NCBI RefSeq assembly: GCF_000003815.2
Contig: NC_049979.1
Location: 17,663,117 to 17,727,116, forward strand
Length of the DNA stretch: 64,000 nt
DNA from: Branchiostoma floridae
Lineage: Eukaryota; Chordata; Leptocardii; Amphioxiformes; Branchiostomatidae
Direction: 5' to 3'
Numbering within the stretch: the first letter of the stretch is position 1; each line of letters starts with the position of its first letter. The notes beneath the pieces are model-generated. The model worked only from the letters and a program-made list of their open reading frames with translations, had not been told where the DNA came from and did no database searches. Shown piece by piece: positions 11,255 through 47,361 of this stretch. The translations under genes were made by a program, and so were the position numbers.

Positions 11255-14008
11255 TCAGTGGGGTTGGTTGCGTGAGCAGCCTGAGCCTGAGCAGCATTGG
11301 TCACCCTCCTGCTGTTTCTTGACTCCCAGAACTGTCTTCTTGCTGAGGATCTCATAGCAATACTCATCTGCCTCCATGGGGTCACACAGTCCGGGGTCTG
11401 TTTCATCCAGCTCAAACCTGTCAATCACAAAGCAAAAGTCACACTTAAAATAATTGTTGATGACTAAAACTCAAATTGCAGTTGTAAGACAGGATTGCGT
11501 TGTTCAGTATGACAAATATGGAGTATAGAAGTACATTTTAACTTCAATTCCACCAATCTTAAGAGACATTCATGCTTTTGTTGATTCTTCAAAGTATGTA
11601 ATTATAAAATTGGCTGGGTGGAATGAAGCCGACTATTACTCTGACTCTTTCAGATCAATACTGACTTTAGTGCCCTGAGGAAGAAGTCCCTGGATTCTGT
11701 GTTCATTTTGAAGACTGTGACCATCACCTTCAGCATTTGGGCCCTGAATAGCAAAAAGAAATAGTAAATATACACATACATCTAAAAGTATTTACATACA
11801 AAGAAGAAGAATGTTTTATATTGTGTAGTGAACAAAACTGCAAGTATTGTTATCTGCAAATTATGCCCAACTTACTTGTTAGCCAGGAGCTGTAAAATCT
11901 GCATCATGAACTTCCCAAGGCCTTTTCTTCGAGCTGTCTTGGTCAGCTGGATTTCATAGCTATCAAATAAAAATGGAAAAGCAGAATTATTACGGAGAAG
12001 GGAAGACATGTTTAAAATTCTATCTCAACTATAAGAATTGATATATGTTACATAACATTCTGTTTCACATCATCAATAAGGCTTTAGAAGGATGATAGCT
12101 GAGACATAATGATTTACAGGTTTTGACTTTTTCATTAAGTGGTGCTGTGATCANNNNNNNNNNNNNNNNNNNNNNNNNNNNNNNNNNNNNNNNNNNNNNN
12201 NNNNNNNNNNNNNNNNNNNNNNNNNNNNNNNNNNNNNNNNNNNNNNNNNNNNNTGAAGTGTGAGAAGGCAATGGGCTGGCCATCCTGGTCTCTGGCCACC
12301 AGGTACCAGGCCTTGTCTTCTGTCAGCTCCTCTTTTTTCAGACGATCATTCCAGCCCCAGTTACTCTCCTCATACCTGGCAAACACACACTTTGGTCACT
12401 GCTGTTATGTCATCATTACAACCATTATCATCAGAATCATCCTTTCTTCAATGTGTCTAAGTGTGCATATCTGTTAACTTTCAATGCAACTTTGGCTTTT
12501 ACTAGTACTTGGCAATACAAATAACATTTACATTTCAAGATATAAAAAAATTCAAAAAATTCTTGTGTCTGATGACCTACAATGTCTGCATGTTGTCCTT
12601 AGTAACGGAGAAGGCCCAGTCCACTGTGTCCTTGTCCAATTCAGCCACCTTTTTACACTCAATGGCCAGATTCAGCCTGTAAAACACCATTTGATTTTAA
12701 TTAGAACACAACATACTGAAATTACTTATACACATTTCTGGCCACACTAAATATCATGCAATTAAACAACGTAACAAGTTAGATCAAGGCCTATTCAAGG
12801 TAGAAGGTACAAATGTATAAAATACTTAACTGTACTGAGATACCTCCAGAGGTAAGTTCATTTTGAGTTCATGTATGTACTCACCCATTCCTTTCATATT
12901 TCTTGAATGGAGCCATTGTTGCCATTGGGTCTTCTTGCTACAAATGGAATGAAACAGCTTGCTCAGCTTAAGGACTTCCTACATTCAGAATCATGATTAA
13001 GGTCAAGCAAAAGCTAACCAATTGATTGAGTAATTCTAACAGCAATATAAACAAGAGAATTGGTCCAGTGAAACCCACTTCTGTCTTACCTTGTTTGCTG
13101 CCTCCACAAGAGTGAAGGAGGCTGCCAGCTTTGCCTGTTCCTGTAGAGAATTAAAAAAAAAATCAATTTCCAAAGGTATGTTATATGCGCAGAACTTTGT
13201 AATGTTACAAGATAACAAAAGCTCCTTTTTTTCTTTTTCATGCATTTAAAAACCTTGGCCTCAACAGAAGACATAGTAACTCTTGAACATGAAACTCACC
13301 TCCTTTCTCCTCTTCTTCTTTTCCTTTCCTTTATTTGATTTCCTCTGAAACAAAAAATAAATGTGAGTTTTAAACGTATTTGTGACTTGGTACTGTCTGT
13401 CCCTTTTACAAGCTAGAACAAACCTATCTTCAACCTCTTTTCTTCACCAGAAATAGTTCTTTTCAAAGGAAGATTAACCCTTCCATGTGTCTATAATATC
13501 CATATATAATATTGCAATTTCACCATATTTGATATCAATAATTGTGACCGACTTTGTTCAAGGCCTTTAACGTTACACATTGATCTATGACAGGGGCTAA
13601 TGGAAGGCTAGCCTGTCATTAAGAATCTTTCCCGCAATTAATAACAAGCTAATAATTAATTTGGTTTATAATAAACCAACTGGAAGTGTAAGTTGGTGAA
13701 GTCAACGTCAGCTCAAGGGAGGTTAACCTCATAATTTGATACCTACGTTAGTCAATAGTTCAATAAACGTTAGAGTTGTTTATAAACACACTGGTAAAGT
13801 GAAAGAAAATCTGTATTGAGCTTTTTCAGAACTCGATCGTGAAATTTTTATCATCTCTGATCCTGTGCCCCCCCCCCTCCCTCTGCCTGCCTCTTACTCG
13901 TCTGAACTGTACAAGAACACAACACCATTAAAGAAAAACCGCGACCAAATGAGAATCAGAATATAACAAACTGTTTCTTTGATATCACTATCGGAAACTT
14001 ACCCCCAT
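11255..14008 (-). CDS. NAA40: N-alpha-acetyltransferase 40 (histone H4/H2A N-terminal acetyltransferase), one exon partly in gap
   Basis: NatD enzyme: acetylates the N-terminal Ser of histones H4 and H2A using acetyl-CoA. Coding exons on the minus strand: 14003-14008, 13300-13344, 13090-13140, 12885-12937, 12581-12676, 12375 into the N gap (visible to 12254), 11876-11959, 11666-11743, 11255-11417 (TGA). The first exon encodes only Met-Gly; the next gives a lysine-rich stretch ([15 protein letters not shown]). MGRKS at the start fits the family and a possible myristoylated Gly2. Then come [49 protein letters not shown], the acetyl-CoA-binding loop RRKGLG with [18 protein letters not shown] and [12 protein letters not shown]. 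About 30 residues of the GNAT fold before CYEIQL lie in or next to the gap. The tail is Cys-rich ([13 protein letters not shown]). Head to head with CATSPERG. Confidence 0.95.
12154..12253. other. Assembly gap (100 N) inside NAA40
   Basis: Exactly 100 N, the usual placeholder for a gap of unknown size. It cuts the exon that ends in IAFSHF and hides the splice site and the segment linking it to the CYEIQL exon. Confidence 0.95.
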
Positions 14009-14416: not shown

Positions 14417-17400
14417 ATGTCAAGCATGTTCCGAACGTTTGCCCTATGTTATTTTGTGTGCAACATTGTTTGTAGAACCATTTGTGCCTCAGACTTTAAG
14501 AAACTTCAATGGTGGGTAGATGAAATCCGATATAGTCACTTAGCGGAGAGCGTGGCTGTGCAGTCAAGTTCGCCTTTAGTTCCTGTTGGGAATGTTTGGA
14601 AAGACCTCGGTGTTCAAAATGTTGTCAGTGAACTTCAGGTAAGGCTAAGGTAAAATGGCACGGATAAAGTGTCGTTTTTGTAAGTGAAGAAAGGACAGGA
14701 TCTTAAAGCAAGCTGATTAGAATATCTAAATTGAGTCTTAATAGTTTTTGTTGGAGTTTCTCGATTAGGGTTGACATTTTTTTGCTGTATTATATTTTGT
14801 TTACTATCTAACTAATTTTCACATTTCATTCGTAATGATGATTTTTTTCTCATGCAGGATGACTATTCCTCATTTCCATATTGGTTGAGGATACAAGTGA
14901 AGCAGAATAACAAGGTAATCGTAATAACACTGAAGTGTTCCACGTCTCATCGGAAATGTACAAATATAATCTATGTAGTGATATATGAGGGTCTGCATGG
15001 GCAGTCTCGGCAACGATTTACGCTGAATTCAGAAGAACCCCCTACGTATTACGCTATAATGAAGATAAAAGACATAATGTGTTCCTGCGGTTCGTCATCT
15101 GAAACTGTTGCTCACTATCTGCCACACTGTCCTCTGTACCATTTTCCAACTTGCCCTTCCTTTCCGCAACTGCCCTTCCTTTCCTTGCCCTTCCTTCCTA
15201 CAAACTTACCAGAAATCACAAAATTCCATCCACAATGTCTCCAATTATATGCTATTGACCTACATATAGACCCATCACCCTATGGAATAACCAAAAAGAT
15301 AACCTTGGCAAAGGCAATAAATCTAAAAAATGTGAGTCTTAGCCTAGGTATTGGATAGCTGCAACAGTTGTAAGTTTACATAGAAACTGCAAAATCCTGA
15401 GTTTAACCAAATAAAGATACTGCCTTTATCCAATCAAACTGTTATTTTACTATTATAGAGGCTTACATGTGTATGACAACTAACTGTATGACAAAGTATT
15501 TCAATACCTGCACCCTCCATCTTGACAGGTTTCTCACAGTGCAGCTAGGTATCTTGCTCTACGTGGCATTACTCCAGTTGTAAGGTTCCTGCCCAGAGCA
15601 AGCCCCAGGGTGGACAACAGTTTACCCTCCGGCAGTATGGAGCTACATGGTGCACTCATTGATCAGGCTGGTATGACAGGAATGCAATTCATTGCTTCTA
15701 GATGTCACCACAGCATCTCATGTTTAGTGTCTTTCTGAAACTGTCATAGTAAGATTAATGTCCCATAAAAGCCATGTAACATGGATGCATATCTCTTTAC
15801 TTCACATCATTTTATGGTGAATATCATGTATCACTTAAGTGCCAAGGTACCAACAAAAAGCTAGACTGCCCTCCATACTGTTGTCAATCTGACCTTTCGA
15901 AAGACTGGGAAATTTGGGACCAACGATGTTGGGGGTATTTCTGGTATTGCTGCAATACAGGATGTTCTGTGATCAATCATCTCATCATGTTGGCCTATAT
16001 TATTGTTGCTTGTGTCATACAATGAACAACATAATTATTGTACTCGACACATTAGTTTGGACTTCAGTAGCTCTGCTTGAAATTTTATCCTCTAACTTTG
16101 TGTTTGTAACATCCTACTTTGATTTACCTCTCAGACTGGAAGGTGGACCATGATAACAGCAGCTGCTACTTTCTCTGTGAGCCAGCCTGGCTGGTGCCGT
16201 TACCTATGGACAACTATACCAGCTTACCAAGGGTGGAGGTGTTGGGCGGTGGAGATGCTGTTCTTATGAAAATGTTAAGGTAGTAGCACAACAACAAATT
16301 TAGCTTCAGTAAATCTAGAAAGTATCCAATAACTGACTGTCTCAACTCTTCGGGTGATCATTATATGATATTAATTCATCCTGTGACTGCAGAGCTATTT
16401 CTAAATTCTAGCTTCTAAAAACCCAGATGTCACAGTCTCTCTGTTATTTTGAACAGGTCAAAGATTCTACAACGTCATGCGACACTTTCTACTTTCAATT
16501 TCTCCCTTTTAAATTTATGTTTCTATTATATGTAGTTAATGGTGTGGAATATTTTTTGTTCTTGATCTAACTGGGTATAAATTACTTTTTTGATTATCTA
16601 CCCCACCTTCCATTATCCTTCCTTATTCACCCCTAATGAGCAACATGTTTCCTCAGTGAAGGTGTCCACATCCACCACTTCCACTCCCAGCTCCTGGAGT
16701 TTCCAGATGCCCTAGGAAACAAATCTGACCTGAGTGTCAGTGACCTTGCTACCTGGGATCCCTATCATGCTGTACACATCCCATTGTTGTCACCATCTAT
16801 CATAATGACAGGGTTTAGCAACTCAACCCTGGGTGTCTTCACATCAGATCAATTTGAAACACACAATGTCATCCAGGTACTGGTTATATAATCTACATGT
16901 ATGTTGATCTTGTTTTACTTTCCTTTGCAAAGATTCACAGATGCTGGAATGTGTTTGCATGTTGTCATTTTGACTATAACACAGAAGGAAATTTACATTT
17001 TCATATGACAGCAACACATTTTAATATGATTTTACAAATTTAATAGATCAGCTCCATTGGTATCTGATAGACTCTTTACTATCCAGTTTAGGATCCCAAG
17101 TAGACAAGAGACAAATCTGTGCTCAGGCTGGACTTCTGCACCACCTACCATCTTCAGTAACCTGATGTTTCCAGGCAGTTTCCTTCTGGCCACCTCTGCT
17201 GGGGTTGTTCAGTATCCTCTGGGGGAGTATGCTAACACAACTAAGTGTGTAAGTAAGCTGATTGGTCCAAGTGATCCTCTATCTGGAAGGTTCCAAGTGA
17301 TTGGGATTGGAGGTGAACCTGATAAAGGAGATGTTTTGGTGGCAGACATGACTGATTCCAAGTACCAGGCAATAGACTTTGTGGAATTAGTTGACCATAG

Positions 17401-20400
17401 GAACTTGTCTTACTGTGCTGTATTGGACAGGACTGGTGACTATTCAGCATGTACTTTAGTTGATGCTGCCATCAGTCCAGTGACCAACCAAACATTCCTT
17501 TTCTTGGTTCTAACAAATGACATGAATGCAGACAAACATTACCACGTAATGCAGTTCATTGGTGAGCCTGGTCAAGGCACATGGGAGGAACTGTCTGTTA
17601 TATCAGATAAGCTGCCACCTAAGTCACAGTTTGACCATTTCACATGGTTAACAAGTGATGTTCAGGACCAAGGACAGGACCAACTTACACTGACGGGCAT
17701 GTCCTTCTTGGGGATGGTGTCACAAGGCCTGTACCTGTGGGGCAGTGCTGTTTTGTACAGGTAAATCTACATGTTTATTGAAAATACTCAGTCTGTTTTA
17801 TTGTATATTACAGTGCACGATTGGTGCCTCAAATCAATGACACTATCACATTTGTGTGTTAGCCTGGGTATCAACCTCTTTAGCTACTATTGGCTTTATC
17901 TTTTTGCTTCTTTAGTGGGAAAGCAAGAAAAAGAGAATGCCAGTAGTAACTACGGAGAATGGCTAATGGGTGTGTCAAATGAGATCCTTGTTCTTGTCTC
18001 TCTCAGTGAAGATGCAGGAAGGACCTTGTGGTGGCTTCACACCTTCATGTCTAACTCTACTGTCACCCAGCTTGTACCGTCTGGAGATGGGGCTTTTGCC
18101 TTCCTCACCGATTCACAGGAGGTTATAGGTTTTATTACCTTTGTACAAGGCTAAATTTTAGCAGGGTGTTTCTTTGTGCACTTCATGTAGGTAATAGCAA
18201 CACAGTATTATCTTGAATGTTGATTCCCATGATTGTATATTTCTAAGATTGTAATTAAGACTGAAATATGCACTATATTGCTGATATTTATAATGTATGT
18301 CCAAATTTTGAAGTAAGAAAGTACAATATTTGTACTTTGAAATTTTTTTTCTCGTAAAATAAAGATTACAGAACGTTTGTATGTTACTTTACAACACCAC
18401 AACATAAAGACCCTTTTGATTATATTTCTATGCTGAGTTGAAAGAAGCCATATTTTCCTGACGAGCCTGTCTACCTGCTGTTGGCTTCTGTCCTTTCAGT
18501 TATGGTATGGGATGGCTGGCACCACTCGGCTCGTGAAGCTGAGACCCAGTGAGGGTTGGTCTTTGGCAGAGAGTTTTGGTGACCTGCAGATTCGCTGTCA
18601 CAACACCAGCACACTTGCCATATTCATGGATATCAATAGTGAACTCAGGGAGGTCTGTACTTCTTCTTTCTTAGATCATTTTTACATATAAATTTTTAGA
18701 TACGTGGACCAGTCTAAAAAATCATGAGAAACATTGTCAGCTCTTGGTTTTTTTTTGCAGTGTCAGTTTGCCCATAGCCTTTGTTTGAAGGTTAAGAGAA
18801 CCAGTTCACAAAGGCTTACTAGTGCCTGTTTCTCATGCAAACTAATGCATTGATAGAGGAGGCTGTTATTTGTTTTCTGTAAGGTCAGATGTATGTTAAA
18901 CACCATGTCTCCCTGCAGGTCCTGACCATAGTTACCAACAATAGTGTTCAGATATCCAGTCAGACCATCCCAGTCATAGACATTTTGCAGCATCAAACTT
19001 ACTTAACTGGAATTCAGAAAATGCGGACAGCTTTGGCAGGGTATGGATTCAATCAGAATATTAATTTAGAGGAGTTAATTTCTTTGGTTTATTTTTTGGA
19101 ATGTTTTATTCCCTGTCAGGATCAAAACAAGGGTCTCCTGTTTTTATACTGCTTCTCTTGGGATGACAATAATGTAATGGTTATTTTATTGCAGGCTAGA
19201 AAGTCAAGTTACTGAAAACCTTTGAAAGTTTCTGTTCAACAAAGCTTCATCACAAATTTTGAACTAACAGCTAACAATGTTCTGCCCCTGCTTCATGTAA
19301 TCCTGGATTCCATTGTTGACTTTCATGTTACGTTCTGTTTTTAACTTTGTCATAGAGCAAAGCAACATGGCAGGTTTTTGAATTGTGGATGCCAGGTTTT
19401 AACTACATGTATTATCATTTGCTAACATTTGGAAATCCTTGGCAACATACCTTGCAGAACGACAGATGTGGACAACTTCCCCGTCACCATTCCCCGCAGT
19501 TGCCCCTACTCCTTCATGCAGTTGGAAATACCAGACATCCAACACAACAGTGACATGAAAAAGTTTAACATCCGACCAGCACATATAAGTTATTCCCGAC
19601 CTGTTCATACGTCAGACTCCCTGGCTGTGTACTCTGGGATGGTACACTACATGACCCACTACAAACCACCTCAAGAATGGGTTAGTATGGAGGTACAATG
19701 TATTGGAATGGGCTGGAATTAATGATATATGGTATCAGCATACCAGGAGCATGATATCATGTCTTGCACGTCCAGTTTGTTTAATTATAGTTTTGGATTT
19801 CATACTCAAGTGCTTTTTTTAGCAGTACACAAATACACTAATTGTTCACGAATCATTTTCTATTTTGGAAAAAAAATGACGCAATTGTAACTCCTCCTCT
19901 GCTTCTGTGCATTAATTGCAGGCATACAGTCTTGCTGCTATTAATAATTTCCAGAACCTGCTGGCTGCTCATGAGAATGTGCAGGTATTAGTTCTTTCTT
20001 TTGTTGTTTAAACTGCAAGTGCTTTCAATACAAAAATTTTACTATGGCATAGTGTTACCTTTATTATGGCATTGTATTATAAACACATAATGTATAATTT
20101 GTTGGCAGGTCATTCAGAAAACAGACAGTATTTAGTTAACTTACCAGTTTTTGTTGCTGCTTGGTTCCTCATTAAGTGTAGGAAATTTAAACATTTATTT
20201 TGATGCATTACCATGTTCCTCTCTCCAGGATTACTATACATACATGTACTCAACACGGAACATAAAAGATGTGTTTCTCAGCCTGGAGGATTACCAGGAA
20301 GTAAGTGTTTGTTTTTTGCGCTATTGACTTAGTTTTGAGTGCTTAGATTCAATACATTTGTTTTTAAAATGTTGGAACACTTGCTATAGGAATCTTTTTA

Positions 20401-23400
20401 TTAATCTTAACCCTACAGCCGCACAGCAATGCCAGTGCCACACAATTTCCGCAGCATGTCTTCCTGGACACCAAAGCCTCCTTCATAGTCTACATCAGAA
20501 TGAATCTGCACCCTGCTCACCCCAAAGGTAATCAGTCTGTATTCTCTATACATGTACATCATCTATCATGTTGAACTTTACTTAAAAATGGACCCAATAG
20601 TCTTGTTTGATATGTTTTCCTGCTTGTTGCAGACACGGAGACATACGAGCACACATCCATGGATCATCTCCAGTTGTCAGTCTGGGTGTCTGAACCCACA
20701 CTCCTGGATGTCACCTCCAACAAGACAGTTTTCTACCATAACTCCTCTGTGCTCTATCAGGTAAGAAGGGGTTGAAGAACATTATTTGTCAAACTACAAA
20801 TACAAATTTATGCGTTCTTGATGTTGATGTTTCTGATCTGGGGACAAAAGACATTGCCCTGGTGAATGTTAGTTTAGTGCCTAAGACCATATCACAAATT
20901 AAAAAAGAATCTCCAATACACAGTTTCATGCAATATCCTGGCAAAGGAGTTTTTACAACAGCCATTAAAATATAGGACAAATGCTCAGCTGCCCCAGAAC
21001 ATTGGTAAATCTGTGTTGTAAATTCAAGATGCTGTCCGGTATGGTTACTACTTAAGTTATCGGGTAGCACTATTGATCAATCGTGTTTCAGTAAATAGAA
21101 CTGATGTGTCCTCCAGATTACTGTTGCAGACACAGGTGTGTACAAGCAGCAGCATCCTCCTGGAGAGAAGTTACAGGCTGTGTCTCTCCAAATGCAGGTT
21201 TGTTCACCAACCCAAGGCAGTGTTACATGCTGTGCTGTATGTAGTTGGCAAAATGCCCCATGTGTAGGCCCATTGCTGCACTACAGGGACAGTTCTGTTA
21301 ACTTGTGTGTGTTTTCAGCACCAAGGACAGGTATTGACAAAATGATTATTGCGGGAAGCCATCTTTTATTTCATCTTTGCATATTGTATCAGTTGACTTT
21401 TACATTACTGTTTACCATCTTGTCATTTACCTTCTTGTCATTACCTTCTTGTCATTCAAAATGGATACGACATTTCTTCCAATGTTGATCATTATGACAA
21501 CTTAGTTAAGTTTTCACACATGTTGTCTACAGCCTTGGAATGCACCCCTGAACTGTTTTCACCAGGAGAAAACACAGGTAACACACTGGAGAGGCAGCAT
21601 TATTAGCAATAAGCTATGTTCAAAGTGTGAAATTCTATGTTTGATAAGAGGTGTAAGTAAGTCATTTGTACAATTTATATTTGTTTATTATTATCATCAG
21701 TATTGCAAGGTAAATTACACCAGTTGAACTATATGGATGTAAGTTGATTTTATGTACCAGCATTTTGTATTTCTATTGCCAGTATAACTTGATATATTGA
21801 TATACATGTATTTGTTGTTTAGGGAGTGTTATCAACCAGAGTGATGCTGGGATGTCCCTTGTCAGTGAAGGTCCTGTTTGACTCAGCCACTTCCCTCCCA
21901 TACTCCATTACTAAGTACAGCTGTCGGCAGACTGATCCTGACATTCCCTGCTTCTACTTGAACAAAGGTGCATAAGCCATAGTTGATATCTATGGCACAT
22001 TAGCACCACACTACTGTTTTACCCTGATCTTATATAATGTATATGTAGAATACCAGTAATCTGTAAGCCATATGTTCTTTGAATGAGCTGTGTTGATTTG
22101 GCATCACCTGTTGATACTACAGACTGTTGATTTATCAGTGAACCCATCATTTTAAGAGCATACATTTACAGACCATATGATGAGCATCTATCATATTCAA
22201 CCAGGAGTAAGGATTAGATATAATCATCAGAAGTTTTAATGTTTGACATCTTTTTTTTTTTAGCCTTCAGACCATTCTTTAAGGTGAATGACCTTGTGAC
22301 AAGGACATCTGTTGAGTACAAGGGAAACTACACCCTACTGCTGATTGGTGGAGGATGGAATTCTCTCAGTAATGTTGAGATGTGGAGTCAGGAACAGGTT
22401 GAATTGTACAACCCTCACTTCAGGTAGATTCTGTGCTGTTAGGTTAGCTACTAATTAGTGTCAGCAATGAAAAGGCTTTAGAAACTTTACCGTGACTTTT
22501 ATTGGCCATTTTGGCATATCTAGAAAGTCATTATTATTCCTTTGTTGACAGGGAAGATGCTCCAGCCATGTGGTGGCCAGGGTCCAGTGTGCTAGCAACT
22601 GACAGGATTTTTAGCCAGAACCAAAATGTCATCAGGTCAGTTATTTTCCAATGAACCTTGTATTCCCTAGCTGTGGACTATACTATGTGCACAAAGGAAT
22701 ATCTATCCATTTTATGACAATGTGTTTGTGTGTAATTTTCTTGTTACAAATGCTTATAGAGTCTCTCCGTGGTGCTGAACTGTTGTCGCTACCAGGTTGC
22801 TGTGAGCCCAAATGTCAGGTCCAAACACTACCTATAAATAATGTATTGTGATTTGTTTGCATGATTTTACAATGTTTATCTTTGCCTCGATTATATTTGT
22901 TGTTCTCGTTTGGCAGCTGGATCTGGCCAATGGACTCTCCTTGGTGTCAACTGGTCCCAAACCTGGGAGCCGTACCTGAATACTACCTACTCTTCCGTTT
23001 TTCAAACAAGTATCCATATGCCCATTCTTATACATTGTTTCATCCCATGTTTGTTTTTTTCGTATATAATCATCATTCATATGGACCTGGATCATTACAA
23101 TTGTAGTTTAGTTATACCTGATTCTCACAATGTATTCCTAGATTATTGATGTACTCAAACTGAGTCAAAGTAGTATAGTAGCATAGCATATGGATATATT
23201 CAGTTTACTTCTATAGGCTGATTCTAACCTTTACCACACAACACTACCTCATGGAATTGCAGAACAGAGTACAAGTTAATTCTTTTCCTAATTTTAGTAC
23301 CTTGTATCAAAGTTTATGCTAATTGTGTGCAGTATTGCTTTGTGTATCATGCTTGATCTCTTTATTATTTATACAGGGGAGTTGACAGCTCCACCAACTG

Positions 23401-25274
23401 TGAGCACACCCTTCAGTTTTACATTCGTGTGTATGGAAATCCCGTCCACTACAGCTTCAAGATAGCCCTACTTTTTGTATGCTTTTTTCTTTCTTGTTCA
23501 CACATTTGATCAATATTATCTGTCACTTACCCTCTGCTTCAGAATTTATTTGGACCACTTATTTTTATGTATCTTTACTGTAATGCAAAACTGATGTATG
23601 GCCAATGTGTAATGTCCTAGTTACCCATAGTACACCACATGTTACCCATAGTATGCCACACAATGATTAACAGTCAAAAACTGCAGTAGCTAGTACATTT
23701 TTAATCGTTTTGTTCCTTGGGGTTAGGTTCTATTGACAGATTTCCATGTTTCTTCAAGAATCAGTATGGATAGATTATCTATGGCCTCTGTGCATTAATA
23801 ATTAGCTCTGTTATTGTTTCATACAGGCTACATTTGTATTTGGACTGCTGGCTGCAATTACATACTACCTCTGCCATCGCAATGATGCCAAGCTCTGGAA
23901 TAAGGTGGTACGACCAGTGACTGACAGGATGTACAATACCAAGACATACTTAAAGAGAAGATTAAGCATGGGTAAGAAGGGAAAATTGGTGCCTCCAACT
24001 GTCCAAGGAGGCTATATGAACCTCTTGGTGCCTCATTTTTTCCTAATTGACTTTTTTAATGCCATACCAATTTAATTATTGGTTCTCAGACTTTAAAAAA
24101 ATGGAGTGACAAGGTGAAAAAAAGAATCAACACATTTTGCAAAAAGTCTGGAGTGAAGATAATGGCTTTTATAACATAAAGTATGATAAGCCTTCAGCTT
24201 GAAAAAGTAAACAATCTGTAGCAGACAACCAACTTATCCCGGCACTTCTATCATGCAGATCATATAGCTATAGGAGGTGTAGCTGTTTGTTGGAACTTAT
24301 TAAAGTAAAGTATGTCACATTCACAGAAGCTTATAAAGCCACTTAAGCCAACTTGGTATACTGGAAAATCGAAAATTGTTTAGTGGCTTCAAAGTCGAAT
24401 TTTTGTCAGTTCAAAAAAAATAGTAGAGGGCAATTCAGAGAACCTAATCGATTTGGTATGGAATTAAAGAAGAAATTTACAAAAACTTACTGAGGAAAAA
24501 GGCTTTTAAAGTTTTGTTTGTAATAGTCTAATCTCCATGCTTTATTTGAATAAATAATCCACTGGTTGCAATGTGAAGTCTTTTTAATTCTCGCAATGTT
24601 ATGCAGTACTTGCACCACCAACATTTAATGCAGACAAAGCAGAGGGAGTGGAGAAGGAGGATGGGTTCCAATGGAGAGCTGATGAAGACCTGGACACATC
24701 AGAAGGTGGAGTGGAAGGTACAAGTTGTAAAAGTGTCTCTCAACACTGCAAACTGATCATACTCTGTCTAAGGCCATGTACATTGTACAGTATGTATTGT
24801 AGTATAAGAGCAATCAAAACGTAAGGACAAAGTCACTGTTTGGTAATTTTTCTACAATATAAGTTGAATCTCATCATTACACAGTACGGTGATATTCATA
24901 ACGCATAAATGTAACGTTGTTGAGTCAAGAGCATCTTGAAATATGCCTGCCATACTCAACGCTGGAAATGTGAAAAAATTATGCAAATGTGTCCATGATT
25001 TACTGTCAATCTGAATGGAGATTTTTAGATTCGGAATATTTGCATTTTTGACAGGAAAATTCCACAATACATTGAACCTTTCGGATTTTTAGCTGACTTT
25101 GATGGAGAGAGATGTTACCCTTTGCCAATTCTCTCTCGCCCTACAGAGCCTTTTACTACCCCAGTGGTGCCCATGCCTAACATCATAATCCAGTCCGGCA
25201 GTACAATGGATATGGAGCTGAGCCGTCGCCACAGGTTGGAACCACTGGACTTTACTCATCAGCACAAGACTTGA
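14417..25274 (+). CDS. CATSPERG: CatSper channel auxiliary subunit gamma
   Basis: Single-pass glycoprotein of the sperm-flagellum CatSper Ca2+ channel; its large ectodomain helps form the canopy over the pore. Exons: 14417-14638, 14858-14914, 15529-15670, 16135-16279, 16657-16876, 17087-17760, 17884-18121 (acceptor uncertain), 18500-18652, 18919-19040, 19458-19680, 19922-19984, 20229-20300, 20419-20527, 20633-20760, 21117-21197, 21533-21577, 21823-21967, 22264-22423, 22552-22635, 22917-23009, 23377-23476, 23827-23971, 24607-24717, 25093-25274. Total 1237 residues, versus about 1160 in human. I start at Met 14417 because MSSMFRTFALCYFVCNIVC is a signal peptide; an in-frame ATG lies at 14381. 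Seen: many NxS/T sequons and cysteines, FPYWLRIQVK, GITPVVRF, the near-membrane FSNKGVDSSTNCEH block, a membrane helix around residues 1084-1107 (KIALLF then ATFVFGLLAAITYYLC) and a tail of about 130 residues. Assignment to gamma over beta/delta/epsilon rests on length and the remembered GVDxSTxC signature. Confidence 0.84.
14990..15415 (+). mobile_element. Decayed LINE 3' fragment in CATSPERG intron
   Basis: An open stretch here encodes CSCGSSSETVAHYLPHCPLY, the Cys-Cys-His-Cys knuckle typical of the C-terminus of LINE reverse-transcriptase proteins (CxCG..E..xHxLxxCPxY). It ends near ATAAAGATACTGCCTTT, a possible short 3' tail. No RT catalytic part remains, so it is a 5'-truncated relic. 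It overlaps no coding exon. Confidence 0.65.
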
Positions 25275-25518
25275 GACATTGTAAACTCTTTCATATTCTC
25301 TTTCTTCTACTGAACTACCTTTCTGCACTTTTTAAGTGCATTTTTGTACATAGACCTAATAGCCAAGAGGTTGCCATTATTTCTATAGATTAAGACAAAA
25401 ACCTGTAGAGGATTAAAGCTAATTTTATTGAGTGAGTAGAATAGCTCAATATTAATGGTCATAGTATGTTGTAAACTTGTATGTCAGGACATGTGAGTTC
25501 CATAGTGTGTAGCAGTTG
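25275..25518. terminator. Convergent 3' ends of CATSPERG and CATSPER1
   Basis: Just 244 bp between the two stop codons. A plus-strand ATTAAA at 25412-25417 can serve CATSPERG, and a minus-strand AATAAA (TTTATT at 25424-25429) can serve CATSPER1. If both are used the two mRNAs overlap by a few tens of bases. A stronger plus AATAAA at 25726-25731 would give a longer CATSPERG UTR antisense to CATSPER1 exons. Confidence 0.6.
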
Positions 25519-28500
25519 TTACATGTCCTCCTCAACCTGCAATCAAAAAAACGCAGGATATAGTAGTATGTACAATATGTACAAAGTCATGTTAAGGTTT
25601 GTTATCTTTATCAATGAATAGTCTGGTAGTAATCAGTTGATTGGGCTTTTTGAATAATTGACCAAGTGTAAATGTATCATATTTGATAATTTTTGGGGCA
25701 TGGGGTTTGAAATGAAATAAAGCTAAGCCATGTATATACATTATGCATTAAAACATTCCCAGAGTTGTTTCAAATGTCAAAAGGTGAATTAAACTACATG
25801 AAAAACTAGGATCCATATGCAAGTCTACATGTTTTCTCATCAGGTGTTCTACCAGGCATGTATAGAGACAGTTAACTCACCACAAGCTCAATAAAGTTGT
25901 CCACAACGGTCATTTGGTTCTGCAGAATGTGGTTATTGTACTCTAAAGAGGCCAGCAGCTGGAAGGACCGAGTCATCAGTTCCTTCTCCCTGACAGTGCA
26001 AATACATACACATACTTTAGGATAGGACCTCTTACATTTACCAATGAAAAAGTAGATTCAAATTAACAAATCATACAACTCAGCAATAGATGTAGAAGCC
26101 TCTGAGAGGACAGCAAGAAATTATGAAAGTTCCTAACACGTTTACAATGAAGAATAATTTCTGGTGTGCAAAAGTAATGAAAGATTAGGTTGCCTGTACC
26201 TGGTTGTATAGCCTTCAGGATAATAGTTGTTGATTGTCTTTTTCTTGTGCAGATGCAGTACATCTTCCTCCTCACTTTCATCTGTATATATGGCAAACAT
26301 TCACTAGTGTCTACTCAACCTTAATTTAGGAGCATAACTATTGATTCCAGTATGAGACACAATCACATTTTACAATGCCTCCCGGTCATAATACCTGAAC
26401 GTTAACACATTTAATTCTTGCCTTACTGGTTATAGGCCACACTTCCATAACANNNNNNNNNNNNNNNNNNNNNNNNNNNNNNNNNNNNNNNNNNNNNNNN
26501 NNNNNNNNNNNNNNNNNNNNNNNNNNNNNNNNNNNNNNNNNNNNNNNNNNNNNNNNNNNNNNNNNNNNNNNNNNNNNNNNNNNNNNNNNNNNNNNNNNNN
26601 NNNNNNNNNNNNNNNNNNNNNNNNNNNNNNNNNNNNCCTACCATAACTTGATGACTCGTAGTCATCATACCAGTCGTCATCAGAGTCGTCATCATCAGCA
26701 GCACGCTGAAAGTGAAGTGGACCAGTGAGCAGCAGAGAAAAAAAATCATATGTAATTAGGACAACATAACATAGATGTAATTCTTGGGGTCATTTTAAAC
26801 TTATTTCTAATCAGATTCAATAATAGCTTGATCTTGCCAACTGACTACAACTATTGGTTGTAAGGGTATTCTGTACCCCTTACCTTATGTTTCTTCTTGT
26901 GCTTCCTCGCCTCTGCATGATCCTTAAGGGTCAGCTGAAAGTTGTCCACTAGCACAGCAACAAATAAGCTAAAAACAAACATTAGAAACAGTTTTACAAT
27001 ACATGATACAATACTCAGAAACAGATAGCCTAAAGCTCTGCATCGCTATGTTCCCCCTAGAAAAGCCCGTTTTAACAACCTTCTATCTTTTAAGTTTCAG
27101 AAAGGAGAAAAAGAATCTATGATGTACCTACTTGAGGAAGATGAAGTACTCCATGATGATGTAGAGGAACAGGTAGAGAAAGATGTGCCATTGCCCTGCA
27201 ATGTGAAAAATGCATTAACGTCGATATTGCAAAGGCACTCAATGCCTTTTTATCCATCAAATGTAAAGGAAAGCATTCTATGGCACACAATCACGCAGGC
27301 CAGCAGCCCGTATGAGATTCGAAGGGCGCCCGCCTGCCGCCCCGAGCCTTAGTAGGGCGCTAGGTCACTGCCGTAAAGTAGTCGTGGTGCGTCCGTGGGC
27401 GATGTCCTTGGTGCTGAACTTGGTGATTAAAAGATGGAGTTCATTTTATTATTTGCATTTTGGGGAAATTGTTAATATGTTGCCTTTCTAGATTTATTTT
27501 ATTTAGATGGCACCAAGGCATGCGCAGTTTACAGAGGGCATTCCAGGCACCAATGCTGATGTTGGTTGCCATAGTGCATACATATATTATACGGTGAAGT
27601 TGTACATCATTCACGGTTTACTGAAACGCTTACAATAGCGAAATCAGTCCATGATTCAACACGTTGTCGCAGCATGTTGCTGATATCGAACAATATGTGT
27701 ACTCTCCAAACCTGGGTCGTTGCTGACTGCATCACTGTAAATGTAGTACCAATCGTCCAACGTCAGCAGCTGGAATAGCGTGAACATGGCAATTGCCAAG
27801 TTGTCGAACCGACCATTCTCACGGTAAATGCCCGCGTACAGTCCCCGTCCAATCACTGCAAACATGTCTGGATTTGGGTCAAGTTAACAGTATGCAAGTC
27901 GGCACATAAAACAATTGCTAGATCAGCAAGTTATAATTATGTCTGGAAGATAGATTCTTTTTGTACTTTTTTTGTAGTTAGAATATTGTTATCGATAAGT
28001 GTCCTGTCATTGTCCAATTCCATTTGTATTGTGTCTATTTTCGTCAGCAGGGCTAGCCCTTTGTAATAGCCACAGGCTTGTTGGGTAGCCCTGGCTGTGC
28101 GTGCTGAACAGCCAAACCAATAAATAGATAAATAGAATATAGATATAGCGTCGTTAGTCTTTCACTATATTTATAAGCTAGCACGTACGGGTCAAGGAAA
28201 ATGTTAAGCCCTCCGAATTTATCTGACCTTAACATTTATTAGTTTACTTTATGGCACTGTGGAAACTTTGAAAGGATACACAAGAAGAGGGACATGAGGA
28301 GGAAGATGGCGCCCATGGACTGGATGGACTGTAAACATGTTGTCATGATCACTTGCAGGTTGCCCAGAAATCTAAAGACAAATTAAATTGTCCAACTTAA
28401 ACACAGTTACATGAAATATATTAATTCATTGTAGAACAATTGTTTATGATTTGTAGAGATTGAACCCTTGGATTCAGTTATAGTAATTCCAGTGCAAATC

Positions 28501-29599
28501 TAATGCTGATTTTGTCGAGGTTGAAATGTACCTGATAGCTCTCAGTGCCCTGAGCGCTCGGAAGATGCGGAAAAGACGGAAGATTTCCGCTGACTCTGTA
28601 CCTGATGTGGCACTGGATGGTGCACCACCTGTGTACAGATCCATGATGACGTCAATCAGGTTGAACATCACTATGATGAAATCTGTTGGAGGGAATTAAG
28701 ATAAAAGAAGAATCAGTAACAAGTCATTGAGAGTTGCTGTTATGCTGGTCTAGCCCGAGATGGCTAGAATTTATATGAGTATGTAAACTATCAATTCTTC
28801 ACAGACATCACGTCAAGAGTGCATTGTGCTAAAATGAAACGATGATTACGTGTTGTATCGACATAAATCCTTTTATTTTACTAACCTAAGTCATTCCAGC
28901 CTTCTTTGAAGTACGACCCTCGAAAGGCGTATAACTTCATGACGCACTCTATCATGTAGATACCGCTGAACAGCTGGTCCAGCACCATCAAAAAGGACCC
29001 TGCATGTACAAATTGTTGGTTAACCAGATACAAAATGTACGTATTCTACATGCTATGCTAGAATATGCTAGCGTGCATAATCTTTAAAACAGCTGACATA
29101 AAGTAACAATATGACAATACATGTATCACCAACCTGCGCCAACTTCTATCTCTTCAAAGGTCTGCACCACAAGCATAGTGGTGTTGAGAAGGATCACTAC
29201 AAGGATCATCCCGCCGAAGAAGTTCGAGTCCACCATGTCGTACACAGCTCTGCGGAGAGGGCTCGCATTCTTAAGCAGTTCTTCCTTCACCTTGTTCACC
29301 TTCTTGGCGGCACTCTTGGCCGATACCCCCGTGGTCTTACTATCTTCTTTCGTGACGACTTCCTGTACATGTAGCCGATTGGCGTGGTCTTGGGAATGCA
29401 CGCTGACACGTGTATCCATTTGGCTACCGAGGAACCGTTTAGCAGCACCAGGCCGAGAGATGGCTTCCGAGCTTGGTGCAAGGTCTGCAGTATGAGATGA
29501 GTGTTTCGATTTTGATGGGCCCCAATTAGGATCTGGTTGGGCCACGGATTTTCGTCTCTTTTTCTTCCGTTTGGGAAGGCTGGTTGATGATTCGTCCAT
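25519..29599 (-). CDS. CATSPER1: CatSper channel pore-forming subunit 1
   Basis: Alpha subunit of the sperm CatSper Ca2+ channel: six helices, one voltage sensor, one quarter of the pore. Exons: 29134-29599, 28886-28999, 28532-28682, 28280-28371, 27712-27855, 27132-27195, 26884-26968, 26642-26705, 26200-26281, 25881-25986 (or 25990), 25519-25536 (TAA); 461 residues with these junctions. Seen: basic N-terminus of about 125 residues; S1 with VVILLNTTMLVVQTFEEIEV; S2 with GIYMIECVMKLYAF; S4 with regularly spaced Arg (FRLFRIFRALRALRAIRFLG); pore AMFTLFQLLTLDDWYYIYSD with the CatSper TxDxW filter; S6 with FLYIIMEYFIFLN then LFVAVLVDNFQ; a C-terminal coiled segment (SFQLLASLEYNN..). TLDDW and the S1-S2 block match CatSper1 rather than CatSper2-4. 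Odd: no His-rich N-terminus as in mammals, and an Asp-rich exon after S6. An N gap follows that exon, and the exon 9/10 junction needs the 25986 acceptor to stay in frame. Confidence 0.92.
26453..26636. other. Assembly gap (184 N) inside CATSPER1
   Basis: A run of 184 N lies in the intron between the acidic exon (26642-26705) and the next exon (26200-26281). Those exons join in phase without it, so the gap need not hide coding sequence, but a small exon cannot be excluded. Confidence 0.9.
27970..28145 (+). repeat. Dispersed repeat with AATAAATAGATAA tail, copy 2
   Basis: Lies in a CATSPER1 intron, antisense to the gene. Shares the block order and the terminal CAATAAATAGATAA with 7440-7600, but has a short insertion (GGGCTAGCCC..ATAGCCACAG) lacking in copy 1. 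Likely 3' end of a LINE or dependent SINE. Confidence 0.65.
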
Positions 29600-29854
29600 A
29601 TCAGTAGTCTCTATAGCTTTTGAAACACCTGACAGTGTTGATGATCTTCACCTGACCCTGGTACCGAGGACGACAAGAAAGGATTAAGTCAATGGAGTGG
29701 CATCGTAATACAGTCATGGAAAAGGTGTAAACATGTGTGTATCCCGTTACTATAGAACGACAATGTAGGTCATTGTCATTACGACAATGTCAATGACCCT
29801 GGTGATTCACTAAACCCAATATTTTGTTCTAGAACATGACAAACATTTGTACAT

Positions 29855-30445
29855 ATGGTTGATGGCGATGGAGAAAACCAAACAACTAACAGTCACATGC
29901 AGAAAGCCAGCACGAGTCTGAAGAAGAAATGCAGCACATGGGGGTCAAGAACGACTCAGATCTCCATAAACCAACTCGTGAGTGGTCACACGGAACTAAA
30001 CGCCTACAAAAACTGGATTGATCCCACGGAGACACCAAACTGTAGCACATGCGGTACAAGGGAAAATATAGACCATTACATGTATGAATGCCCAAAGTAC
30101 GAGAGCACCAGACAACATCTAATGAAAGAAATTGACAACATATATGAAGACTACGAAATCCCTCAACAAGAAAGAACAATGGATGTTGTATCCCTAGCAG
30201 GAATGCGAAGCGACCTGACAAACGAAGCAAACAAGAGGATGTATTTGGCGTTCGCCAAATACATAGAAGGCACGAGAAGGTTTGCCGAGCAGGTCTAAAA
30301 CATCCCAAACACGCATATGCAAAGTACCAGAGTACAAGCACCAGCGAGGTCAACAAATCTAAGAGCACCCAGCAGAAAAAGCACCGAGAGACCATGTCTA
30401 GCGGAGAAATAGACGTTGAACAAGGACAACAACAACAACAACATT
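29855..30445 (+). mobile_element. LINE 3' fragment with (CAA)n tail
   Basis: An open frame to 30298 encodes the C-terminus of a LINE ORF2 protein: CSTCGTRENIDHYMYECPKY is the CxxCxxxxxxxHxxxxC knuckle after the RT/RNase H part. About 125 bp of 3' UTR follow and then (CAA)n at 30427-30443. There is no RT domain, so this is a 5'-truncated copy; its frame is still intact, suggesting a fairly recent insertion. It sits just upstream of CATSPER1. The plus-strand ORF is oriented away from CATSPER1. Confidence 0.8.
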
Positions 30446-31349: not shown

Positions 31350-34300
31350 ATGGCAGCAAAAGAAGAAGAAGCCCAACAGCTGATGATCCAGGCCGAGAAG
31401 AAAGTGAAGTCGTCCCAGGGATTTTTCGGCTCCCTGTTTGGAGGGTGAGTTGGGATCGATCCTTGCTTTGGTGCATAGTGGGCGTGATCATTGCCTTCTG
31501 TTGTGTATTTGGCTTCATTTTAACAGCTAGGCTTCGGAGGTTTAGATTCTGCTAATGTGCGTTCTTTGTTTTGTATAGTGGCTCTTCCAAGCTGGAGGAC
31601 GCAGCTGACATGTACGTGCGGGCTGCCAACATGTTCAAAATGGCCAAGAAATGGAGCGGTGAGGTTCATGACAACGAAGCCTTCTCCCTCAATCAGTCAT
31701 GAAAGATTCATCTAAATTCATTTAAAATGTCACGATTTAATGAATACAGAGGTCATCTGACTGGTTATATCCTATATATAATCAGTCTAAGATCCTTTGG
31801 CATGCGAGGTTAGGTAGCAGAGAATTATGTCTGCTTTGTTTACCTCTAAATGACATGATGCTGTACAATCATGTACAGTCCTCCATACTCTAGTAAATTG
31901 ATTTGATGGCATACAGCAAGTATTGTCCTTTGACAGCAAAATTAATTACTTATGCAAAGTCTACCAAGTAGGGATTGGTTGCACAGGGTAGAAAATAATG
32001 ATGATATTAAGTTATGTCAAGGAACAAATAGCCATTCATTGTCGGTACAATGTAACGTTACATATAATATGATGTGGAATATCTGTTTTTGTCATGCATG
32101 AATGTAACTCCAGCCTATCAATGCACTCACTAATCAACAATGATATTTTCTTTCAATGTCAGCTGCTGGCAATGCCTTTTGCGAGGCAGCCAAACTTCAG
32201 ACCCAACTGAACAGCAAGCACGAGGCAGCCACATGTTTTGTGGATGCAGGGAACTGCTTCAAAAAGGCAGATCCTCAAGGTATGGAGAATTTTAAGTCTT
32301 ACATGTCTCTTACACGTGTTTGGTAGACTGGCTTTCAACTGAAGTTGAATTATATATAACCAACCATAATGGGGTGTGTACCTTGGTTTTTATTGTTAAC
32401 CTCACTGTCATTCCCTTCATTTCATATTATAGAGGCTGTCAACTGCATTTCCAGAGCTGTGGAAATATTTACTGACATGGTGAGTAAAGTGTTTTTGTAC
32501 CAGATTGGTGAAAATGATACTTCTGTTCCCTAAACTTCTAGGCTAACATTGGTGGTCTTTTTATAGCCACATGCACTGTTGTTTACATTTTGAGAATTTT
32601 TGTGGATGAATAACAACATTAGGAGCTTTTGGTAACTTCTAAATGTCACTTCATTACTATTTTTATGTCCAGGGTCGATTCACTATTGCTGCCAAGCACC
32701 ACATATCCATAGCTGAGATTTATGAGACAGAGATTGTGGATATTGACAAGGTTTGTGGCATTGATTTAATTGCTAATGAAGTTGTAACACTTTTAGAATG
32801 ATCTGTACACTGTGATCATATAGCAGACAGAATCCATTGATTTAATGGCTTTATTTGTTTAGTATCTGTTGTAATGTACAGTTCATCATACTTTGTGTCT
32901 CAAACATAAAGCAATTCTAACATACCTATAAAATGCTAATGACATTGGTAGTTGTAATCAGCAGTGATTGAAGGACATTTCATGGTGCTCTAATCTAATC
33001 CCTTCAAATCGATTTTCTAGTCTCAGACTCTTAGTACAGGAAACAGTCGTCATACCGTACCATACTTAAATTTGCAATGAGAAATTTTTCATTCACAATG
33101 TTGAAGTATCAAGTACTAGTATGCTTTGTAGCTGTAACAATCATCAGGTTAATTTCTTGTATCTTGAATTTGCTTGATTGTGAGCAAGGACGTTCTATAT
33201 AATGTCCTTGGTGGACACTTGCGAATGATGCTGGTAGGGATTCAAATACTTACAAGAAATTAAAAAGATGCCAAACAATCAGTTTTTCTTCTTTATTCCA
33301 GGCAATCTCCAACTATGAACAGGCGGCCGACTACTATAAGGGAGAAGAATCATCAAGGTGGGCCACAGATAATTTGTCCTTTAACATAACACTTTTTACA
33401 TAAGCATTTTTATCATAAACCAACTGACAACTTGCAAATTTAAATTAAAGCATGGTTCACTTGGCTGCAGATGTCATTCATATAGAATTTCCTAAACAAT
33501 AGTGTATTCAAATTTCGTAGTTAGGCAGCATGGCACATAGAAGGCACATCTCTCATGTATCTTTGATGGTAACTAAAGAGGATTAAAATAAGGACAGCAC
33601 CATAGGTGAATACTTTTTGTGATCCATTCTGACTCAAAACTCTAATGCAGGTAAAAGATAATCTCATAAGTTATAACATTACAGGTAAGTATATGCCAGG
33701 TATTTATTCCTGGTGAAATGTTGCATCATCCAAGTTCTGGTTTAATTTTTTATAGTGCAGCACTGTCGATGGAACATGACATTTCCCTTTCTTTGTTTTT
33801 CCATTTTCCCTCCTACTATCTTTCGAGGATTTCCTGACAAGAACTTGGAAGTTTGCATAAAGTAAACTGTATATAGCACCAAAGTGGTCATTAATAACTG
33901 AAAACACATCTGTTTCTGTTACCTCTGTCCATGCCATAACATCACATTTCATACATGGCTGTTTGTGTCATCTGTTCTTGCTACTGGTGTTCTGTAGTGA
34001 GTAGAACTGTTTACTGTGTTGTTTCCCCTGCTGTTCAATGGCTTCCGAAGACGAAGGTAATGAAAATGTTTTCGTCAGCAACCCTTCCATTTCTCATCAA
34101 TATTTAATCTGTAATGAAGGCTATAACTTTTAAACCACTAGAGTGTCTGGTATTGTCATACCAGAAAATATTTTATTCATGACCACTTTGTGAACAGATG
34201 TCATAGAGTCACTAATCCAGATCTCATGCAGTTTTCTCCTCGATTTATTTTGATTATGATCATCACTTACATGAAGTACATTTCAGTAGTTAGCTAAGAT

Positions 34301-36028
34301 GTGGAAGTTTCATTGCACATGACAAGTAATGAGAAAGCAAGGATAACACTCTGAACACAATGTTACCAACCGACTGTTCAACCATGAACTCGATGTTACC
34401 AACTAACAAAGAATAAACACTCAGACTGCATGTAACTCCTCTTCCTAATGACTATGTATATGTTAACTTTAGTCTTAAATACAGTGCTTTTATCTTTGTT
34501 TGTTCTAGGAGCTCCTTGATTTGTTGTGTTTATTGAAGTCACTCCCACTGAATATTGATACTGCACTACTGTTTTGATTTTGCCCTGGTCTAGGTACTAG
34601 TACTAGTATATATAAAGTGCTAGTGCGTTGTGATCCACACAATGCACAGTGAAGGCGTAGCATATGTTAAAAAGGAGGAGGATACTATTAATCAGAATTA
34701 AGTATTAGGCCAGAGACCTGAGTATTGTGCCTAAAGTACAAATATGCTGCCATTGTTACAATGATAGAAAGAGAAAGGCAGACAATGACAATCCTGTAAA
34801 TGTTCTTGTGTTTTAGCTCTGCGAACAAGTGTTTGTTGAAGGTGGCTCAGTATGCAGCCCAGCTTGAGCAATATCCCAAAGCCATAGAGATCTATGAACA
34901 GGTATGTTACATTGTGAGATTTGGTACATGGTAAGATCTAGAGTGATCTCTAATGTGTTATATCCTCATTGTACTAGACCAAGACCAAGCTTCACTTTGT
35001 CATTGTAGTACACCTGTAAATATTTCTTTCCTTTTTGTCAGTATGTATGCAGTTCAACTGTTTCCTGATTCAGGACTCTTAAGAAGATACAGCAAAACAT
35101 CCAGTGTGTAGACAGATTTTGAAACAAGAATTCAAGATACAAGCTAGTTCTTATTGCACATAATGAGTATTCCCCTTTCTTCAAAGGTTGCAGTGACAGC
35201 CATGGACAACAGCCTTCTCAAGTACAGTGCTAAGGAGTACTTCTTCAAGGCAGCTCTATGTCACTTGTGTGTTGACCTGCTTAATGCTCAGGTATGTACT
35301 TTATTGTAGTTAGGTGATAACATTGATATTATTGATATTCATTGGTTGAGTATGTCGGTTTCATAAGGTATTCAAGAACATGTTAATGCAAGTAGTTCTC
35401 AGGCATTGTTTGACTACTGCAGATTTTTCAGGTTTTATTACTCTGAAGGAACATGTTTTTGTTGTCTGTTTTTACAGCAAGCTGTACAGAAGTATGAAGA
35501 GATGTTTGCAGCTTTCTCAGATACTCGGGAATGTAAACTTCTAAAGGTAGGACAGTAATTTTGTCCCAAATAATATGTCTTTATTTACATATCTTCAGCA
35601 TTTATTAACATAATGTAGTAAAAACTGTTAAGTTGTGATTTTAAACTCTCTCTTCCTCTTGTTCTTGTAGACTTTGATGACAGCTCTGGAGGAGCAGAAT
35701 GCAGACATGTACACAGATGCTGTGAGTACAGCTTGTATCTTATTATCATTGTGAATCTTACAAACATTTAAGTGGGCAACTCCAGTACTATTCTGACTTG
35801 TCACTTTATTACATTTGAAAGGCTATGAATATACATGATGTGTGTGACATGTATGCAGTACATTTGTTGAGCACTTTCAAGAGAAACAAATAGCATACTC
35901 ACTGTACATATGTGCACCTCTTGCAGGTTAAGGACTATGACTCTATTTCTCGGCTGGACCAATGGCTGACAACAATGCTACTGAGGATCAAGAGAACTAT
36001 CTCAGGGGAGATGGAGGATTTACGATAA
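31350..36028 (+). CDS. NAPA: Alpha/beta-SNAP, NSF attachment protein
   Basis: Adaptor that recruits NSF to SNARE complexes so that NSF can take them apart after membrane fusion; cytosolic, binds Golgi and vesicle membranes. Exons: 31350-31444, 31579-31658, 32163-32279, 32433-32479, 32673-32750, 33302-33357, 34817-34901, 35187-35291, 35478-35546, 35671-35721, 35927-36028 (TAA); 294 residues against 295 in human alpha-SNAP. Seen: N-terminal membrane loop [12 protein letters not shown] with the paired Phe; TPR-like helical repeats ([79 protein letters not shown]); and the C-terminal [18 protein letters not shown] ending in DLR, keeping the penultimate Leu that stimulates NSF. Alpha versus beta cannot be separated; an invertebrate copy would be co-orthologous to NAPA and NAPB. 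Confidence 0.97.
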
Positions 36029-46577: not shown

Positions 46578-47361
46578 GGCTGAGACTTCACCTCACCCTG
46601 CAATCAGAAATCACAATCAAGGCTCTGCAAGAGGATATACAGAATTAATGGAGTTCATTGGACAGGTTAAAAGAAACTTAGAAAATCCTTTGCTATCTGG
46701 TCTTGCGCCTACCCTATCCCCGCCCACCACAAATAGCTGAATCTGATGTAATCTAAGGTTATTTACTTCTTCTCACAGCACATAACGGGGGGTGCTGTAA
46801 ATAAATACTACCTATAATTTTGTAAACAATCACGTCCTTCTAGATCTTTGATTCTCCGAGCTTCTCTTCCTGTCACCAACAGAAAATTCTTAAATTTCAG
46901 ACATCCAAGAACAAGCTCATATCTAACATGATAATACCCAAACGACAACGAAAATACACGAAAACATCCAAAATATTTTGTCGAAAATCGAAAAGTGCGA
47001 ATCAGGAAGCCAGCTGGAGATTTATTTTCAGTCAGTGTGATAAAAGACGGCCAAGCCACGAAAAATGTATATCATCTTAATATCAAGATAAAAAATCTAC
47101 CTTGTACCTTTCAGTTGGTAATCAGCTACAGGGTTTTTAACACCTAGAAAGGGAAAGTTTGCTCGTACTTGGACTCTCCAGCGGACGAAAACATGGCGAC
47201 GTGTAAATCGTGACGTCAGAGTGAACTTCGAGCTTTCACCTTTGACATCAGCATGGCCGTCGACGAAAGACAGCGTGAAAGTTTGAAGAAGATATAAATT
47301 CTTGCCAGTCTACAGTCAATTTTACCCCCAATACCCACAAAAAAGAAAGGCATAGATAATA
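46578..47361. promoter_or_regulatory. Bidirectional promoter region between GOLGA5 and DPH6
   Basis: The start codons are 784 bp apart and point away from each other. On the minus strand a donor (AAG|GTAGA, exon end at 47101) and an acceptor (46597) suggest a GOLGA5 5' UTR exon at about 47101-47200. The segment 47170-47270 has AACATGGCGAC (YY1-like), a full CRE at 47211-47218 and more CpG than its flanks, so it is the likely shared core promoter. Confidence 0.6.
47211..47218. promoter_or_regulatory. CRE TGACGTCA in GOLGA5/DPH6 promoter
   Basis: Full palindromic CREB/ATF consensus, 144 bp upstream of the DPH6 start codon and within about 15 bp of the AACATGGCGAC motif. Confidence 0.6.

Follow-up and report, generated by a model that had tools for sequence, protein, structure and literature searches.

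CATSPERG and CATSPER1 lie tail to tail in amphioxus on a chromosome where their linkage is probably ancestral

Two genes for subunits of the CatSper sperm channel, CATSPERG and CATSPER1, were found as tail-to-tail neighbours in the amphioxus Branchiostoma floridae, within a 64,000-nucleotide stretch of one chromosome (C1:17663117-17727116, plus strand; hereafter the window). The assembly comprises 431 contigs and a total of 513,431,437 bases. CatSper gamma, the product of CATSPERG, is an auxiliary subunit with an ectodomain followed by one transmembrane helix, and CatSper1 is one of four six-helix pore subunits; the gamma ectodomain would be part of the canopy over the CatSper pore. The linkage of the two genes is probably ancestral at the level of the chromosome, which would account for their separation in human, while their tight adjacency is interesting but unproven beyond chance. 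No published description of a CATSPERG-CATSPER1 adjacency was found in literature searches.

Identity of the two genes

Gene models were built with our own exon-chaining gene finder and then corrected by hand from the sequence. The predicted protein identifies the plus-strand gene as the amphioxus CATSPERG orthologue. All four CATSPERG domains of Pfam were detected in order and each above its curated cut-off (CATSPERG_NTD, 5.1e-8; beta-prop, 1.7e-14; Ig-like, 4.5e-16; C, 5.9e-27), and the top matches in the PDB were mouse CatSper gamma 2 (E 2.6e-54 and 5e-54). Up to E 1, the PDB search returned five sequences, which besides gamma were two neurexin constructs (0.034 and 0.035) and one ligase (0.9); neither CatSper beta, delta and epsilon nor any other non-gamma CatSper subunit was among them. 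The reading of this gene as another CatSper auxiliary subunit was dropped, as this search gave gamma only among CatSper subunits. Shorter queries were less informative: one propeller exon alone had no match in the PDB, and ten single open reading frames compared with Pfam returned CATSPERG_C for one, Ion_trans for two and nothing or chance names for the others. The N-terminal part of the CATSPERG protein scored only 2.3 bits with phmmer, even though the Pfam N-terminal domain passes.

The modelled introns of CATSPERG follow the GT..AG rule, with a poor donor at the junction 16248/16662. A hydrophobic exon near the C-terminus (23827-23971) is followed by a modelled cytoplasmic tail whose exons are uncertain. 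Because no coding signal was seen at 24720-24820 (-0.6), the final exon cannot be given a firm frame, and the last two exons are uncertain in this respect. The amphioxus protein resembles mouse CatSper gamma 2 (PDB 7eeb, 9ubw) in the order of its four Pfam domains and in the hydrophobic segment near the C-terminus, and differs in the longer, uncertain cytoplasmic tail of the model.

The minus-strand gene is, as judged from its predicted protein, the amphioxus CATSPER1 orthologue. The protein matched Ion_trans in Pfam (1.8e-42) and aligned to mouse CatSper1 (7eeb_A) with 169.4 bits in one single stretch. The PDB matches were headed by Cav channels with totals of up to 265 bits, which were spread over four to six stretches; the best single Cav stretch among the three alignments shown reached 76 bits. 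CatSper2-4 were not among the best 60 of the 161 sequences matched. The reading of the channel as a Cav or Nav fragment was dropped, as the best one-stretch match is CatSper1. Like mouse CatSper1 (PDB 7eeb chain A, 9ubw chain A), the amphioxus protein has a single six-helix domain, an arginine-rich S4 and an acidic TxDxW pore with the sequence TLDDW, which we take to be the CatSper1 filter motif. A histidine-rich N-terminus was not found in the amphioxus protein, where only five of the 113 N-terminal residues are histidines; this is a difference from mammalian CatSper1, and the histidine-rich N-terminal domain is a mammalian CatSper1 trait that does not define the family.

CATSPER1 contains a run of 184 N (26453-26636), the sole N run inside either CatSper gene. 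With S6 and the tail as query, the top PDB match was CatSper1 (7eeb_A), and the C-terminal tail without S6 had no match in the PDB. The tail lines up with the C-terminus of mouse CatSper1: past the gap, the exons match residues 909-947 in the right order (the chain has 955 residues), at a weak 2.0 bits when taken alone. A false join at this gap appears unlikely because CatSper1-like exons, predicted from the sequence, lie on both sides of it and in order.

The tail-to-tail junction

CATSPERG on the plus strand and CATSPER1 on the minus strand converge, and their modelled stops are separated by 244 bp that contain no N. If the other frame of the last CATSPERG exon is used, the stop lies near 25092 and the spacing becomes about 426 bp. 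The initial annotation of this region, which had proposed a CatSper-gamma-like gene and a CATSPER1 gene between 14417 and 29599, convergent over 244 bp, free of gaps between the stops and with one gap inside CATSPER1, is borne out by the gene models and the matches described above. That the adjacency is an assembly error is extremely improbable. Two gaps would leave room for such an error, the one of 184 N within CATSPER1 and one of 100 N within the neighbouring gene NAA40, but there is no N between the stops, CatSper1-like exons were found on both sides of the former gap (weakly so for the tail) and NAA40 matches over its full length across the latter.

The 3' untranslated regions of the two genes may touch or overlap slightly, if the ATTAAA at 25412 serves CATSPERG and the AATAAA at 25424-25429 serves CATSPER1. 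The nearest plus-strand AATAAA lies at 25716 and its use would enlarge the 3' overlap, as far as the consensus alone can tell. The 5' end of CATSPERG faces NAA40, whose first modelled exon lies about 1.07 kb away, and that of CATSPER1 faces a SNAP gene at 1.75 kb. The pair has no shared promoter because its start codons lie at opposite ends, about 15 kb apart.

Chromosome-level linkage and the separation in human

The human genes had initially been assigned to chromosomes 19 and 11, and this agrees with the published locations of CATSPERG at 19q13.2 and CATSPER1 at 11q13.1 (PMC5558725 Table 1; PMC7648871). B. floridae has 19 chromosomes, and its chromosome BFL1 has a single, 1:1 counterpart among the ancestral chordate linkage groups (PMC7269912); the contig C1 probably corresponds to BFL1. 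In the assembly, the channel matches listed were spread over 17 contigs with numbers between C1 and C19. The CHRM1/3/5 paralogon, which goes back to the two vertebrate genome duplications (2R), was described with 15 neighbouring families that include EHD and PROX. Its first member lies on human chromosome 11, and LTBP3, PROX and SPTBN2 are named for the gar counterpart of this member; the fourth member, for which EHD2, PLD3, SPTBN4 and TGFB1 are named, lies on human chromosome 19 (PMC6298421). Overlapping SSTR1/4/6 regions were reported on human chromosomes 14 and 20, and less so on 11 and 19 (PMC3560075).

RYR (27.63 Mb), PROX (10.05 Mb) and EHD (15.26 Mb) were all located on C1, that is, three of the three families asked, each with a sole locus found. 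PROX and EHD are two of the 15 families of the published paralogon, and RYR, which lies next to CATSPERG in human, was counted with them. As C1 makes up 6.9% of the assembly, all three would fall on it by chance with a probability of about 3e-4. The simplest account is one ancestral chromosome that was duplicated twice. The human orthologues of the genes flanking the pair are found at 1q44/14q32 (ADSS), 11q13 (NAA40), 19q13/20p11 (SNAP), 14q32 (GOLGA5), 15q14 (DPH6) and 2p22/14q24/19q13 (SLC8), and these places of six neighbours all belong to the same group of human regions. In keeping with the CHRM1/3/5 paralogon on human chromosomes 11, 19 and others, amphioxus PROX and EHD share a chromosome with the CatSper pair; in contrast, the 15 neighbouring families named in the passage of PMC6298421 include no CATSPER genes.

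An ancestral linkage of CATSPER1 and CATSPERG at the chromosome level, with the human split caused by the 2R duplications and reciprocal loss, is judged likely. C1 would descend from one ancestral chordate chromosome on which the two genes were linked, the two vertebrate genome duplications would have produced several copies of it, and one copy would have kept CATSPER1 (human 11q13) and another CATSPERG (19q13) after reciprocal loss. Judging from the homologous complex of the mouse, both gene products would meet in the sperm flagellum. The initial annotation had left two possibilities side by side: a preserved ancestral cluster gains support only as linkage at the chromosome level, from the location of RYR, PROX and EHD on C1 and from the published paralogon (PMC6298421), whereas a secondary gain favouring co-expression finds no support here, as the convergent genes share no promoter.

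Several observations weigh against an ancestral linkage on C1. CATSPERB, which would be expected on C1 from its human location at 14q32.12, sits on C8. Human cyclic-nucleotide-gated channel genes, whose amphioxus relatives lie upstream of the window, are found elsewhere, and the upstream flanking genes were not used in the linkage argument. Members of the CHRM2/4 (PMC6298421) and SSTR2/3/5 (PMC3560075) paralogons are likewise present on human chromosome 19. Because this chromosome holds several paralogons, the assignment of CATSPERG to the CHRM1/3/5 one leans on human band positions, and this tempers the confidence in the ancestral linkage. Finally, genes have largely been reshuffled within linkage groups (PMC7269912), and a preserved adjacency would be exceptional.

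Other CatSper genes in the genome

Genome searches were read exon by exon, so that a diverged second copy could escape, and within this scope no second locus of CATSPERG or CATSPER1 was found. CATSPERG_C gave one match from six candidates, which is the locus described here. The CATSPER1 protein gave 14 matches, of which seven are exons of this gene and the other seven are stretches of 26-39% identity on C2, C4, C17 and C19. The C4 match (L016, C4:6017500-6027499, minus strand) combines an exchanger-like part, a voltage sensor and an apparent cyclic-nucleotide site, and by eye resembles SLC9C1, a Na+/H+ exchanger of sperm that has been proposed as a partner of CatSper. The candidate channel loci L016-L020, L022 and L023 appeared by eye to be other channels or exchangers.

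All four CATSPERB_C matches fell within one gene on C8 (L021, C8:15546000-15555999, plus strand), the sole locus found. A CATSPER3-like gene was located on C3 (L015, C3:8750000-8759999, plus strand). Among CatSper proteins it matched CatSper3 best, with 120 bits in one stretch compared with 56 bits for CatSper2; the totals of T-type Cav channels were higher (144 bits). CatSper genes thus lie on at least three chromosomes, with CATSPERG and CATSPER1 on C1, CATSPERB on C8 and the CATSPER3-like gene on C3, and CATSPERG-CATSPER1 is the only adjacent pair among these mapped genes. A location of all mapped CatSper genes on C1 was rejected by these results. The CATSPERD propeller (PF15020) had no match in the genome, which says little, as exons were searched singly and no positive control signal was obtained. 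A study whose synteny work was among vertebrates has reported, for B. floridae, four genes of CatSper pore subunits along with a single CatSper beta (PMC2572835).

Direct adjacency of the pair

If 8 to 12 CatSper genes are assumed among 25,000 genes, 0.0022 to 0.0053 adjacent CatSper pairs are expected by chance, and on one chromosome with an assumed 1000-2000 genes the adjacency of this named pair has a probability of 0.001-0.002. The adjacency is therefore unusual for the CatSper complex and for a pair chosen in advance, but this one came to notice by inspection, and a similar pair could have turned up in many other complexes. We lean slightly towards a local accident, in which an inversion in the amphioxus lineage brought together two formerly non-neighbouring genes of the same chromosome. 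The scrambled gene order within linkage groups (PMC7269912) fits such an event, and a probability of 0.001-0.002 is unremarkable given the many complexes that one could inspect; the small prior for exactly this pair speaks against it. A local accident is compatible with the chromosome-level linkage favoured above.

A CatSper unit of two genes that is ancient and has stayed together owing to a benefit of close linkage, through co-inheritance of coadapted subunits or through a shared testis chromatin domain, is considered unlikely. It would suit the established presence of both products in one complex, the 244-bp spacer and the possibly touching 3' ends. However, the convergent layout provides no shared promoter and directs the 5' ends towards NAA40 and SNAP, CATSPERB and the CATSPER3-like gene are on C8 and C3, and the human genes are on different chromosomes. 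Distinctly doubtful is the broader proposal of a selectively kept CatSper micro-unit that is older than chordates and was broken only by the vertebrate duplications, with CATSPER2 (15q15.3) and CATSPERE (human 1q44) as further members that would have shared its ancestral chromosome.

Neighbouring genes and other features of the window

The gene order was ADSS (+), NAA40 (-), CATSPERG (+), CATSPER1 (-), alpha/beta-SNAP (+), GOLGA5 (-), DPH6 (+) and an SLC8-type Na/Ca exchanger (-), the last of which lies past the window after DPH6 (Table 1). These eight identified genes (window -148 to 94327) alternate strictly in strand. The PDB query for NAA40 was joined by hand with an X at the gap, and the NAA40 model had no match in Pfam. 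A downstream piece of DPH6 scored 20.1 bits for Ribonuc_L-PSP, under the cut-off of 27.3. Farther upstream, a nucleoside hydrolase, two cyclic-nucleotide-gated-type channels and a short-chain dehydrogenase were found. The two channel genes stand in tandem (L005-L010, window about -42154 to -6700), and the one tested contains Ion_trans and cNMP_binding.

A large minisatellite with a unit of about 41 bp, also read as a 123-bp unit, occupies 57244-59107; it counts 16.6 copies at 57993-58667 and a further 8.8 at 58741-59101. Open frames at 29840-30298 (+) and 62483-62860 (-) resemble by eye pieces of non-LTR retrotransposon proteins, the former without a Pfam match. No Rfam RNA in the window reached the gathering score.

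Table 1. Features of the window (positions counted from its first nucleotide)
Feature	Position	Strand	Remarks
ADSS (adenylosuccinate synthetase)	1-7824	+	start about 150 bp before window; Pfam PF00709 2.6e-56 and 6.9e-75, two model pieces; 3' end approximate
NAA40	11640-13344	-	approximate ends; PDB N-alpha-acetyltransferase 40, 2.7e-71; first exon not in model
Assembly gap, 100 N	12154-12253		inside NAA40 coding region
CATSPERG gene	14417-25274	+	ATG at 14417; 24 modelled exons; TGA 25272-25274
CATSPERG exons 1-12	14417-14638, 14858-14914, 15529-15670, 16135-16248, 16662-16876, 17087-17760, 18007-18121, 18500-18652, 18919-19040, 19458-19692, 19922-19984, 20229-20300	+	
CATSPERG exons 13-24	20419-20527, 20633-20760, 21117-21197, 21533-21577, 21823-21967, 22264-22423, 22552-22635, 22917-23009, 23377-23476, 23827-23971, 24607-24820, 25055-25274	+	
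CATSPERG transmembrane exon	23827-23971	+	hydrophobic segment where CatSper gamma match ends; helix judged by eye
Spacer between modelled stops	25275-25518		244 bp, no N
Possible CATSPERG poly(A) signal ATTAAA	25412-25417	+	consensus only
Possible CATSPER1 poly(A) signal AATAAA	25424-25429	-	consensus only
CATSPER1 gene	25519-29599	-	ATG at 29599; ten modelled exons; TAA 25519-25521
CATSPER1 exons	29599-29134, 28999-28886, 28682-28532, 28371-28280, 27867-27712, 27195-27132, 26968-26884, 26705-26671, 25989-25881, 25536-25519	-	
CATSPER1 S3/S4 exon	28532-28682	-	S4 with six arginines, evenly spaced three residues apart
CATSPER1 pore exon	27712-27867	-	contains TLDDW
Assembly gap, 184 N	26453-26636		within CATSPER1: intron, or possible hidden exon
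alpha/beta-SNAP (NAPA/NAPB)	31350-35721	+	first ten modelled exons; Pfam SNAP 1.7e-101
GOLGA5 (golgin-84)	39623-46592	-	approximate ends; Pfam Golgin_A5 6.3e-114 for 39623-42486; N-terminal part near 46 kb by eye
DPH6	47362-64000	+	may run past window to about 73.6 kb; Pfam Diphthami_syn_2 8.5e-29

Implications

For two subunits of an obligate complex whose genes are not linked in human, the amphioxus locus gives a concrete picture of what was probably the state before the duplications. Their separation would find a simple account in one ancestral chromosome, two duplications and reciprocal loss. If direct adjacency were shared by outgroups, the pair would represent a deep microsynteny of a sperm channel that has itself been lost from several animal lineages.

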